Shown here: piece after piece, positions 10,225-31,807 of the stretch
Layout: the number at the start of each line of letters is the position of its first letter
Numbering within the stretch: position 1 is the first letter of the stretch
Assembly (NCBI RefSeq): GCF_037038585.1
Contig: NC_092541.1
Coordinates: 1,373,445 to 1,437,444 of the forward strand
Length of the DNA: 64,000 bases
Source: Patagioenas fasciata
Lineage: Eukaryota; Chordata; Aves; Columbiformes; Columbidae
Reading direction: 5' to 3'
Notes under the pieces: model-generated
Seen by the model: the letters and a program-made list of their open reading frames with translations, nothing else
Database searches by the model: none
Told to the model about the DNA's origin: nothing
Made by a program: the position numbers and the translations under genes

Positions 10225-10575
10225 GGATGCTCTAAGGGACTCCGAATTGGACTTGGGACCCTCTGTAGGACTCGGTCCTCAGTCCAATTCCAAATCCCTT
10301 AGAGGGTCCCCAACCCAACACCCTCTAAGGGACTCTGAATCGGACTAGGGACCCTCTATAGGATTCGGTGCTGGGTGGGGGACTCTCTAAGGAACTTGGA
10401 ATCAGACCAGGGGCCATTTAAGGGACTTGGTACTGGATTGGGGAGCCTCTAATGGATTTGGTACCAGGTTTGGGACCCTCTGTGGGATTTGGAATTGGAC
10501 TGGGGACCCTCTGTGGGACTTAGTGCTGGGTTGAGGACCCTCTAAAGGATTCGGTGCCAGGCTGGAGCCTCTCTG
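10225..10575. repeat. Diverged minisatellite with one inverted unit
   Basis: About ten imperfect units of roughly 33-38 bp are built on GGGACCCTCTAAGGGA followed by TTCGGTGCTGGGTTGG or TTTGGAATTGGACT. The stretch 10271-10314 reads the unit on the opposite strand (CAGTCCAATTCCAAATCCC, then TTAGAGGGTCCCC), so an inverted copy is embedded in a direct array. It lies downstream of the minus-strand HSP gene's 3' end. No coding role is evident. Confidence 0.8.
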
Positions 10576-11239
10576 AGACGCTCGGTGTGGGGCTGGGGGC
10601 TGTCGCTGGCTGCGGAGGGTGCAGCAGAGCAAACCCCCCTCACTGCCGGGTGGGGAAGGGCTGTCTGAGCTGCAGAGCACTCTGCACAGGTGTGCCTGTC
10701 TGTGTACCTGCTGCATGCCTGCTGCCTGCCCGGGCCTGAGCCTGAGCCTGCCTGCCTGCGCTGCTTAAACACCGTCTGGAGTCGGGCTTCACCCTCCGCC
10801 CGCTGGGCTCTCGGCTCCCACACAGCTTGGAAAGGGGCTGCAGGACACCCCAAGTGTGGCTACAACAGGGGCACCAGCACCCAGCCAGGCTGTTTGCTGT
10901 GGTTTTTTCCATCACCCAGGGAGGGGCTGTGGGGCTGGTGCAGATGCGGGCAGTGCATGAGGGGCTGATGGAGCTCCCCAGGAGAGCTGCCCCTGCCCTG
11001 GTGCAGGTGAGTGGGGCTGATCCTCCCCCTTGAAACCTTCCTGCCTCCCCCCAGCATCACAGTGCCTGCAGATCCCTCCCCACTCTGGGTCCACTGTCAG
11101 GCCCATTTTGTGCTGCCCTGAGGCACCAAGAGAGGTTTTTTTCCCCTCTCTGCACATCCAGATCCTCCGGCTTAACCAGCTGAGACCAGGGCCAAGCCTC
11201 CCTATCAATCAACACAAGGAGAGCACAAACAGGTTCTAT
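10576..11239. other. GC-rich intergenic DNA, nothing recognised
   Basis: Open frames on both strands here are of low complexity or short and match no family known to me. No CR1, TATA/HSE pair or RNA gene was seen. Confidence 0.5.
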
Positions 11240-11381: not shown

Positions 11382-11969
11382 TTACGCCTGGGCTTTGCTG
11401 GTGGCTCCGTTCTCAGGGGCTGGTCCGGGCTGTGGTGCTGCAGGGCTGACCTGGATGGGCACGTTCCTCTCCCCGCTGGCCGTCAGGGCCAGCTTGGGGG
11501 CCTCAATGAGGAGCTGCCCCTCCTTGGACAGGGAGCAGCTCAGCGCCTCCACATCCACGTCCTCGGGCACGTCCCACTCCCGCTTCAGCACCTCGTACTT
11601 GTAGGAGAAGCAGCCCTTCTCATCCGTGTTCTGCATCTCCTTCTGCCCCACCAGCACCACCTTCCTGCCCACCACCTTCACCGACAGCTGCTCGGGAGCG
11701 AAGTTCTTCACGTCCTGGCAGACGGAGAAGCCGTCCCCGGTGCTCTGGGCCAGCGCGGTGCTGGTGCTCGGGGCTCGCTCCATAGCGGTGGTGGCTCCGT
11801 GGCTGGTCAGGAGCTGCTCGAAGCTGCTCATGAACTCCCGAGCCTTCTCCATCTCCTGCTGCAGCTCGGTGAAGATGGTCTCTGCGTGCGGCCAGAGGGT
11901 CCTCACGGTGCCCAGGCGGCTGGCCAGGGAGCTGGAGGCGAACGGGGCGAGATGCATCCGGCAAAGCAT
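11382..11969 (-). CDS. Small heat-shock protein, avian HSP25/HSP30C (HSPB9-like) clade, copy 1
   Basis: This is an intronless gene of 195 aa. Small HSPs are ATP-independent holdase chaperones that form oligomers and bind unfolding proteins in the cytosol. The N-terminal arm (1-77) has MLCRMHL, RTLWPH and a helical EKAREFMSSFEQLL. The alpha-crystallin domain spans about 79-161, from GDGFSVCQDVKNFAPEQLSV to SLSKEGQLLIEAPKL. The tail carries NVPIQ (169-173), an I/V-x-I type motif. The ATG at 11969 was chosen because its start MLCR matches the sister gene and it lies downstream of the TATA-like box. An in-frame ATG at 12149 is upstream of that box. The gene sits where human HSPB9 lies, between RAB5C and KAT2A. 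Avian names in use are HSP25 and HSP30C; I cannot tell which of the two this is. Confidence 0.9.
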   Translation of the reverse strand: MLCRMHLAPFASSSLASRLGTVRTLWPHAETIFTELQQEMEKAREFMSSFEQLLTSHGATTAMERAPSTSTALAQSTGDGFSVCQDVKNFAPEQLSVKVVGRKVVLVGQKEMQNTDEKGCFSYKYEVLKREWDVPEDVDVEALSCSLSKEGQLLIEAPKLALTASGERNVPIQVSPAAPQPGPAPENGATSKAQA

Positions 11970-11971
11970 CG

Positions 11972-12060
11972 CGGCTGCTGTCGCTGCTGCTGCTGTCGCT
12001 GCTGCTGCTGTCGCTGCTGCTGGTGTCGCTGCTGCTGGTGTCGCTGGTGTCGCTGTCACC
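11972..12060 (-). repeat. 15-bp GCN-type repeat in HSP copy 1 leader
   Basis: The plus strand shows repeated GTCGCTGCTGCTGCT units, then shorter GTGTCGCTG units, about six units in all. On the gene strand this is a GC-rich leader of GCAGCAGCGAC units directly before the ATG. It is open in the coding frame and would read as Ala/Thr-rich, but no in-frame ATG lies between it and the TATA-like box. Confidence 0.8.
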
Positions 12061-12107
12061 TCTCCGCTGAGCTGAGAGCGCGATGCCCCAGCTCTGCCGC
12101 CCGCAGC

Positions 12108-12114
12108 TTTTATT
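12108..12114 (-). promoter_or_regulatory. TATA-like box of HSP copy 1
   Basis: The gene strand reads AATAAAAG here. Transcription would then start near 12080, giving a leader of about 110 nt. Confidence 0.6.
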
Positions 12115-12181
12115 CCCTGCGCGGGGAGGAGTGGCCTCGTCCCGCCCATCGCGTCACCCCCGTGGAGAAGCGCTCGGCTCT

Positions 12182-12978: not shown

Positions 12979-13070
12979 CCCGCCGCTCCCCAGCACCAGC
13001 CCAGAACCGCTCCAGCCCCTGCACGGAGCCGAACCGCAGCGCACACCGGGAGCGCACACCGGGAGCAGAG

Positions 13071-13679
13071 ATGCTTTGCCGCCTGCACTTCATGCCGCCC
13101 GCATCCAGCTCGCTCTTCCCGTGGCTGGGACCCGTCCGCACCCTTTGGCCGCATCCAGGCACCCTCTTCGCCGAGCTGGAGAGAGAGTTGCGACTGGAGA
13201 TGGAGAGGGCTCGGGAGTTCATGAGCAGCTTCGAGCAGCTTCTAAGCAGTGGGAGCAGCCCCAGCCGGATCGGCATCACCGCGGAGCGAGCCCCGAGCAC
13301 CAGCGCAGCCCTGACCCAAGGCTCCGGGGACGGCTTCTCCGTCTGCCAGGACGTGAAGGACTTTGCGCCCGAGCAGCTGTCGGTGAAGGTGGTGGGCAGG
13401 AAGGTGGTGCTGGTGGGGCAGAAGGAGACACAGAGCACGGATGACAAGGGCTCCTTCTCCTACAAGTACGAGGTGCTGAAGCGGGAGTGGGACGTCCCCG
13501 AGGAGGTGGACGCCGAGGCGCTGAGCTGCTCCCTGTCCAAGGAAGGGCAGCTCCGCATCGAGGCCCCCAAGCTGGCCCTGCCGGCCGCCCCCGAGAGGAA
13601 CGTGCCCATCCAGATGGAGCCAGCGGTGGCACAGCTGGCAACCAGCACCGACGACGGAGCCGAGCGTGCCAAGGCGTGA
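13071..13679 (+). CDS. Small heat-shock protein, avian HSP25/HSP30C (HSPB9-like) clade, copy 2
   Basis: This is an intronless gene of 202 aa. It has the same architecture as copy 1: arm 1-85 with MLCRLHF, RTLWPH and ERAREFMSSFEQLL; alpha-crystallin domain about 87-168; tail with NVPIQ (177-181). Expected role is as an ATP-independent chaperone in stressed cells. It lies head to head with copy 1, with about 1.1 kb between the ATGs. The central domain is nearly identical to copy 1 at DNA level, including a 58-bp exact match, while the arm and tail differ. This is unlike plain ageing of a duplicate. The start is supported by G at -3, by the shared MLCR start, and by the TATA box 93 bp upstream. 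Human has a single HSPB9 at this place, so two copies here are a bird or sauropsid state. Confidence 0.92.
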   Translation: MLCRLHFMPPASSSLFPWLGPVRTLWPHPGTLFAELERELRLEMERAREFMSSFEQLLSSGSSPSRIGITAERAPSTSAALTQGSGDGFSVCQDVKDFAPEQLSVKVVGRKVVLVGQKETQSTDDKGSFSYKYEVLKREWDVPEEVDAEALSCSLSKEGQLRIEAPKLALPAAPERNVPIQMEPAVAQLATSTDDGAERAKA

Positions 13680-13813: not shown

Positions 13814-13819
13814 AATAAA
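13814..13819 (+). terminator. Polyadenylation signal of HSP copy 2 (AATAAA)
   Basis: The hexamer is 135 nt past the stop codon and followed by a T-rich stretch (GACTTTTATTTG). The short 3'UTR matches that of copy 1. Confidence 0.85.
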
Positions 13820-14238
13820 TATTATTGACTTTTATTTGCGTGGCTTCCGTGCTTTGCAAGGCTCCCGGCTGTGCCTGTGCGGTGGGATGGCAGCCTGGGG
13901 AGCTGGGCTGTGCTGGCACAGGGCATGTCCCTGGCACCTCTCCCTAGCTCTGCCTCGATGGAGCGGGGGGAAGGTTGGTGGAGGGACTCCACACGGTGCT
14001 GAGCATCCCCCCCAGGCAGCCTTTGGGCAGCCGAACCGCATCTTCGGGATGGTTCTGGAACACTCCCGTGGGGTACCTGCCAGTGCCAGCATCCCCCGTG
14101 CCCTGCCCGCCCCGGCATCACTCGTTCCGTGCCCCCCCGTCCCGCTCCATTGCTGGCAACTTCCAGGCGCTCCCTGCTCCTTCGCGACGCGGCGTGCGGC
14201 CAAGCCACGCCCCTCCACCGCCAAATGGGCGTGGCCTC

Positions 14239-14453
14239 CCATAAATGGGAAGAAGGGGAGGGCTCACCTTATTTAAACAACCTGATAGGCGGAGCTACAC
14301 TCCATATTAGGCAGAGGAGGCGTGGCGCGACGGTATGACCACACCTCTTATTACAATGAGGCGGTGGGGCGGGGCCTCACCCCATATTTGGTGGAGAAGG
14401 CGGGGCCGCACTCCATATATGGCGGAGAAGGCGGGGCCGCTCTCTATATTTGG
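14239..14453. promoter_or_regulatory. Array of CArG (SRF-type) boxes upstream of KAT2A
   Basis: Four exact CC(A/T)6GG boxes occur at 14239-14248 (CCATAAATGG), 14302-14311 (CCATATTAGG), 14382-14391 (CCATATTTGG) and 14413-14422 (CCATATATGG). Near-matches lie at 14267-14276 and 14444-14453 (CTATATTTGG). The last three boxes are spaced exactly 31 bp apart, within a tandem unit that also carries a GC box (GGCGGGGCC). The array ends about 335 bp before the KAT2A ATG. CArG boxes are the known binding sites of SRF; binding here is inference. Confidence 0.6.
14360..14453 (+). repeat. 31-bp tandem repeat carrying CArG and GC boxes
   Basis: Units starting at 14382 and 14413, and a partial one at 14444, share CCATATNTGGNGGAGAAGG followed by CGGGGCCGC. 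Weaker, differently spaced relatives extend left to about 14230. The array therefore looks like an old minisatellite in the promoter. Confidence 0.75.
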
Positions 14454-14788
14454 AAGATTATGAGGGGCACTGAGCGCGCCCTGCAGCGCCCAGCGCCGCC
14501 GAACCGGGCACGGTACCGGTTACCGGAGGGGCAGCTCATGCGGGCAGTGATGGCTCCGCGCCACCGGGACCGGTGTTGTCGATGCCCGTCGGGCCTGGAC
14601 CTCGACTCTCCCCGGCCGGTGCACGCCGCCCGCAGCCCCGGGCGGGAGCTCCGCTCCCGCCCGGGTCTGCGGGCGACGTGCGCCGGCCCCGGGGCCACCG
14701 GATCTGGCCACCCCTCCCCAACGAACTACCGATCCCGGCGTTCCCGGCGCGCAGGCGCAGTGAGCGCGGAGCGCACGCCGAGCCCGGC

Positions 14789-20608
<5,820 letters not shown>

Positions 20609-31319: not shown

Positions 31320-31780
31320 CTGGGGTGCTGTTCCATGGCTGGGATGCTGTTCCATGGCTGGGATGTTACTCCATGGCTGGGATGCTATTCCATGGCTGGG
31401 ATGCTCTGCCTTGGCTGGGATGCTCTGCCCTGGCCAGGATGCTCTTCCGTATCAGGGATGCTCTGCCCAGACTGGGATGCTATTCCATATCTGGGACACT
31501 ATTCCATGTTTGGGATGCTCTGCCCTGTCCGGGATGCTGTGCCCTGACCAGGATGCTCTTCCGTATCAGGGATGCTCTGCCCAGACTGGGATGTTGTTCC
31601 ATATCTGGGACACTGTTCCATGTCTGGGATGCTCTGCCCTCACTGGGATGCTATTGTTGTCTGGGTTGTTATTCCGTGTTCAGGATGCTCTGCCCTCACT
31701 GGGATGCTGTTTCATGTCTGGGATGCTGTTCTGTGTCCAGGATGCTGTGCTCTGGCTGGGATGCTTTTCATGTCCTGGAT
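31320..31780. repeat. 19-bp minisatellite with higher-order structure
   Basis: About 24 head-to-tail units follow CTGGGATGCTGTTCCATGG. A block of about five consecutive variant units occurs twice, six units apart, giving a 114-bp higher-order repeat. Because 19 is not a multiple of three and the unit lacks stops, all three plus frames stay open. The resulting frames are not genes. Confidence 0.93.
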
Positions 31781-31807
31781 GAGGACCATGGGGCACCAGC
31801 AGACACT

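Follow-up and report, generated by a model that had tools for sequence, protein, structure and literature searches.

Why should six CArG or CArG-like boxes lie in front of KAT2A, the gene for a general histone acetyltransferase: do they give it SRF input, or are they bystanders of a tandem repeat? In the window (the whole stretch of 64 kb that was analysed), exact CC(A/T)6GG boxes were found at 14239..14248 (CCATAAATGG), 14302..14311 (CCATATTAGG, which we take to be the c-fos SRE core 10-mer), 14382..14391 (CCATATTTGG) and 14413..14422 (CCATATATGG), together with a near CArG box with one mismatch at 14444..14453 (CTATATTTGG) and a degenerate one with two mismatches at 14267..14276 (CCTTATTTAA). 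These positions agree with those of a first-pass annotation, which had counted four exact and two near boxes within 215 bp. The six lie 345-550 bp upstream of the KAT2A start codon, and the four exact ones, which span 184 bp, 376-550 bp before it; this is a CArG-cluster promoter (at least two exact boxes near the transcription start) when distance is counted from the ATG.

That the last three boxes share one face of the helix, as had been claimed, also held: at 10.5 bp per turn the boxes at 14382, 14413 and 14444 have phases of 0.05, 0.00 and 0.95. The box at 14267 has a phase of 0.10, and those at 14239 and 14302 both have 0.43. With the last three on one face and those at 14239 and 14302 on another, 0.43 turn away, the six do not form a single phased row.

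CArG box density compared with chance

The window contains six exact CArG boxes where 3.7 are expected, a count reached by 15 of 100 shuffles; as the window as a whole is thus not enriched, the excess is local, and four of the six boxes lie inside the 215-bp stretch. Scoring against shuffled sequence had been suggested in the first-pass annotation. When the stretch was shuffled 20,000 times with dinucleotides preserved, the mean was 0.04 exact boxes and the maximum three, so that the observed four were reached in none; boxes with at most one mismatch numbered five (reached by 2 of 20,000 shuffles), overlapping 10-mers with at most two mismatches nine (65 of 20,000), and for the 1 kb around the array four exact boxes were reached in none of 5,000 shuffles, figures not readable as independent gains, because the boxes of the firm repeat units described below are copies by descent. 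A same-contig sample of 200 kb (20 stretches of 10 kb each, spaced 150 kb apart, drawn from the first 3 Mb of 9.5 Mb and including 5,405 N) contained five exact boxes, and no stretch had more than one per 215 bp; when boxes with at most one mismatch were counted, the densest 215 bp held three (2 of the 20 stretches). On the strength of the shuffles and this sample, the view that the CArG boxes are chance matches at this composition was set aside. The next densest place in the window (at most one mismatch) is a minisatellite near 10353, with four boxes. For mouse, the available part of one report gives 15 of 6,875 promoters (-1000 to +200) as having more than one exact box (PMC516031).

The boxes lie on a decayed minisatellite

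Three clear 31-bp units, each with a GC box and a CArG or near-CArG box, were delimited at 14367..14459 by TRF and repeat comparison. The TRF row covers 14368-14453 (period 31, 2.8 copies, 87% matches) and contains two of the four exact boxes. Further upstream, 14287-14326 is a diverged copy that matches the later ones at 70-80% over 40 nt, the unit of the box at 14302 being 14287-14317. To assess membership, the box of each unit was masked and the match of the remainder to the clear units compared with that of 2,000 shuffles. Only 4 shuffles matched as well as the unit of the box at 14239 (about 14227-14255), and 23 as well as that at 14302; the unit at 14267 is marginal, 103 shuffles being as good, and membership of 14318-14358 in the repeat is not demonstrable, with 839 of 2,000 shuffles matching the clear units equally well. 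The segment that separates the array's two halves (14318..14366) carries GGCGTGGC at 14319 and no box with two or fewer mismatches. The array therefore has the head-to-tail copies and the unit length (10-100 bp) of a minisatellite, with 2.8 copies of 31 bp and two older units upstream. The TRF array, the diverged copies and the masked-box tests all support the earlier proposal that a minisatellite has multiplied an SRF-type site next to a PCAF_N gene. For the five firm units, which are copies, it is untenable that the boxes are independently evolved sites.

A census of minisatellites (period 10-100, TRF score at least 50) in 264 kb, that is, the window and the 20 stretches of the sample, returned 74 arrays, among which the KAT2A array is the only one with at least two exact boxes. 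Four of the 74 have at least two boxes with no more than one mismatch; three of these, the KAT2A array included, are in the window, and one is in stretch L010. An unrelated minisatellite with periods of 31, 62 and 93 bp, at 10320-10577, has acquired one exact and three near CArG boxes by copying alone; it likewise has a 31-bp period, and is useful as a negative control. A long 19/57-bp minisatellite at 31320-31781 (about 24 copies of 19 bp) has three near boxes and no exact one. Intron 1 of KAT2A (15060-15692) consists mostly of overlapping G-rich minisatellites, with TRF periods of 9-121.

The main rival to a role for SRF is a neutral minisatellite, in which a slippage-prone GC-rich stretch would have copied one CArG-like core, the boxes being bystanders that SRF perhaps binds with no effect on fitness. 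We regard this as almost as likely as the SRF-MRTF input argued for below. The region forms minisatellites readily, as the many TRF rows in KAT2A intron 1 indicate, and the array at 10320-10577 illustrates that copying alone makes CArG clusters. Two of the six boxes at KAT2A are degenerate, and none lies in 14318-14366. All but the first of these observations also count directly against SRF-MRTF input. A neutral origin is less easily reconciled with the census, in which none of the 73 other arrays has two exact boxes, with the position of the array at the edge of a CpG-rich promoter, or with the retention of the boxes.

Retention of the boxes among the repeat units

In the five firm units (boxes at 14239, 14302, 14382, 14413 and 14444), four of the five boxes are exact despite differing flanks. 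From the divergence of the flanks, about 1.3-1.4 exact boxes of five would be expected under neutrality, or 1.6-1.7 without CpG columns, and it is this difference that speaks against the neutral repeat. Neutral simulations were run with a consensus unit chosen by eye, a star phylogeny and an assumed A/T-swap share of 0.12-0.33; the 14267 unit was excluded from the five-unit runs, and the 14318 unit from the five- and six-unit runs. With five units and varied mutation spectra, P came to 0.0035-0.0073; removing the hypermutable CpG columns raised it to 0.013-0.024 (in this run the 14239 unit was aligned manually, a gap of 3 bases being disregarded); with seven or six units, P was 0.004-0.010 for four exact boxes. 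In the first simulation the flank counts for the units 14239, 14267 and 14318 were estimated by hand, and all these P values are post hoc, since the sites had been chosen for looking like CArG boxes. That the four exact boxes differ by A/T swaps only follows from their being exact by definition.

The columns of the four ungapped units (14287, 14367, 14398 and 14429) were also compared in 22 ten-column windows. When bases were scored by W/S class, the CArG box was the most conserved of the 22; by plain identity two other windows, including that of the GC box, had the same 0.15 mismatch as the CArG box, which counts against SRF-MRTF input. Retention of the boxes above the flank prediction is modest post hoc evidence of constraint.

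Partner motifs within the array and at the EGR genes

The motif GGCGKGGC occurs seven times in the 64-kb window, six of them within 14204-14437, and is intact at 14228, 14319, 14368, 14399 and 14430. A motif scan identified the Sp/KLF-type site GGCGTGGC at 14228..14235 (plus strand); the GC box GGCGGGGC lies at 14368..14375 (plus strand), with further copies at 14399 and 14430. The first-pass annotation had assigned a GC box to each unit, which is correct for the three clear units (14368, 14399 and 14430) but not for the units 14267 and 14302, where GGCGKGGC was not found. The scan also returned CCATNTT at 14302 and 14382, and ATGGCG at 14419.

These motifs allow a reading in which the GC/KLF box, bound by Sp1/KLF, is the constrained part, with YY1 possibly reading CCATNTT or ATGGCG, and SRF is not the main user. 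The crowding of GGCGKGGC into the array agrees with it, as do the GC-box window, conserved as well as the CArG box by plain identity, and the three YY1-type matches; in the accessible part of one source, YY1 is a repressor of myocardin/SRF/CArG transcription (PMC7732823). We nevertheless consider this reading improbable, given that by W/S class the CArG box is the best kept window of the four units compared, and that of the two units in which GGCGKGGC was not found, 14302 keeps an exact CArG box.

No strict ETS motif, (C/A)(C/A)GGA(A/T), was found in 14200-14470, and none of the six boxes has one within 25 bp; by this measure the array is not a TCF-type SRE. A loose GGAA/T lies within 25 bp of three of the six, the boxes at 14239 and 14267 sharing one and that at 14444 having another. 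Because GGA alone is absolutely required in a TCF site, according to the part available of one study (PMC516031), weak TCF binding at the KAT2A array is possible. In that same part, the flanks of CArG boxes did not separate TCF and MRTF target classes (PMC516031).

In the same genome, three EGR genes, which served as positive controls, were found by the family DUF3446. We take these loci (L023, L024 and L025) to be EGR1, EGR2 and an EGR3-like gene. EGR1 has four exact CArG boxes in 316 bp, against four in 184 bp at the KAT2A array, and one of them (L023:593) is the same 10-mer as CCATATATGG; EGR2 has three in 269 bp, and the piece of the EGR3-like locus examined, which may miss the promoter, has none. 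Strict ETS motifs number three in the EGR1 cluster region and four in that of EGR2; 2 of the 4 EGR1 boxes and 2 of the 3 EGR2 boxes have one within 25 bp, and a loose GGAA/T is equally near to all seven. Set beside these controls, the shortage of ETS motifs at the KAT2A boxes counts against SRF-MRTF input, as does the boxless EGR3-like piece. An SRF-type MADS exon is also present in this genome (G000:C3, E 1.7e-4), presumably that of SRF itself.

Position of the array relative to KAT2A and the HSP genes

The first coding exon of KAT2A lies at 14789..15025 (plus strand, end approximate). Its PCAF_N match (E 7e-5) scores 23.1 bits, slightly below the curated Pfam cut-off of 24; PCAF_N was matched again in the stretches at 15944 (E 3.6e-7) and 16464 (E 4.2e-36). 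We assume the gene to be KAT2A rather than KAT2B from the gene order, with HSP genes before it and a DHX58-like helicase after it; the frames further downstream presumably represent acetyltransferase- and bromodomain-like exons, followed by that helicase. The observed/expected CpG ratio is 0.4 near 14.0 kb, 0.6-0.85 over the array and about 1.0 at 14.4-15.0 kb. Shortly before the ATG, at 14749..14758, an NRF1-type palindrome (GCGCAGGCGC) is found, and the region around it is probably the KAT2A core promoter. In the available part of a rat study, reporter assays and ChIP show NRF1 acting on the KAT2A promoter (PMC11107004).

The interval from the array to the KAT2A ATG contains four other ATGs (14460, 14538, 14550 and 14582) and, at 14605-14697, a near-perfect GC-rich inverted repeat with 36-nt arms that are 92% complementary and separated by 3 nt. 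Its RNA fold has an energy of -89.2 kcal/mol (z -10.4; none of 200 shuffles as good) and its DNA fold a z of -9.9. Only one other hairpin with 30 bp or more and no more than 4 mismatches turned up in the 264 kb, at L021:2157-2244, with 44-bp arms and no loop. Neither the hairpin at 14605-14697 nor the rest of the 64-kb window gave an Rfam match at gathering thresholds. If transcribed, the hairpin should hinder scanning ribosomes. Together with the four upstream ATGs it suggests that the main KAT2A transcription start is probably downstream of 14697, unless these elements are spliced out, which would place the array about 240-460 bp upstream of the start. The ATGs and the hairpin lying between array and start codon count against SRF-MRTF input. 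The possibility that the array is itself the TATA/start region of KAT2A was rejected: TATAWAW is absent from 14100-14800, and the four ATGs and the strong hairpin point the same way, although none of these is proof.

Upstream of the array there is a divergent pair of HSP20-domain genes, at 11382-12149 (minus strand) and 13047-13679 (plus strand), which fits the avian HSP25/HSP30C pair as described in the accessible part of one report (PMC5101479). An HSP gene had been said to end 420 bp upstream of the array; this fits the poly(A) signal at 13814, but the coding region ends at 13679, 560 bp upstream. When the neighbouring HSP protein was searched against two other sequence collections, 22 and 7 pattern matches were obtained, and no relative by tblastn. 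The idea of a heat-shock element acting on the HSP genes was discarded, GAANNTTC and TTCNNGAA being absent from 14100-14800. That the array serves the HSP25/HSP30C-like gene, or the divergent pair, as a distal element, and not KAT2A, is very improbable. The short distance of 560 bp would allow it, and the pair has special regulation, since chicken HSP25 and HSP30CL were detected in blastoderm but not in embryonic fibroblasts, with quail and zebra finch similar, in the part of the source available (PMC5101479). The array, however, lies 3' of the HSP poly(A) signal and within the CpG rise that leads into KAT2A.

A candidate SRF-MRTF input to KAT2A

The reading we favour, at a probability of roughly 0.45, is that a minisatellite has spread an Sp/KLF plus SRF module through which KAT2A would receive SRF-MRTF input. 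On the distal edge of the CpG-rich promoter, a short GC-rich minisatellite would have multiplied an Sp/KLF site with an SRF box a few bases further on. Next to Sp/KLF proteins, SRF dimers could then occupy all four exact boxes and, weakly, the one at 14444 as well. As the array lacks strict ETS sites for ternary-complex factors, MRTF, the actin-sensing coactivator, is the likelier SRF partner. Actin polymerisation or serum would be predicted to raise KAT2A transcription, from a start that would lie downstream of the array, probably close to the NRF1-type palindrome (14749).

A more far-reaching version, which we hold to be doubtful, is that the lineage-specific birth and expansion of the minisatellite put this SAGA-type acetyltransferase gene under actin/MRTF-SRF control, with copy number acting as a dial. 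Should KAT2A then assist SRF target genes, a feed-forward loop could arise. An active array would mean that, in one bird-like lineage at least, cytoskeletal signalling is linked to a general histone acetyltransferase.

Comparison with known systems

The first-pass annotation knew of no report that SRF controls KAT2A by way of a CArG array, and none was found among the matches listed in a literature search short of most subscription papers, several sources being available in part. The search on the four exact 10-mers gave no match, and no paper joining CArG box and VNTR was found in this search, with subscription papers mostly outside its scope. CArG clusters and synthetic CArG repeats are already known; a natural minisatellite version at KAT2A was not found among the matches listed, within those parts of the sources that were available.

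KAT2A is a general coactivator and, to our knowledge, not known as an immediate early gene, in which it differs from EGR1. The EGR1 promoter resembles the array in packing several exact CArG boxes, together with GC boxes, into a few hundred bp; for human EGR1, five SREs in two clusters are described in the available part of one source (PMC2686679). EGR1 and EGR2 have strict ETS motifs beside some of their boxes, whereas the boxes of the KAT2A array have none and sit on a tandem repeat. In regulatory promoter VNTRs, a tandem repeat near a promoter carries a factor site in its unit. The KAT2A array resembles them in having such a site in a promoter-near repeat unit, as seen in one assembly and at one matching locus.

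With CArG and Sp/KLF sites repeated at 31 bp, and no strict TCF sites, the array resembles laboratory SRF-MRTF reporters. It shares the head-to-tail CArG repeats of the synthetic constructs (the BC-STAR-PROM SRF group; eight 84-bp CArG repeats, 41-3t3 line), and for tandem CArG promoters of this kind the accessible part of the report describes induction by jasplakinolide and a need for SRF and MRTFs (PMC5024686). Those reporters are engineered, whereas the KAT2A array is natural and has decayed units; if it is active, a minisatellite in a promoter would have multiplied an entire SRF site along with the Sp/KLF partner, which would make it the natural counterpart of the tandem-CArG reporters.
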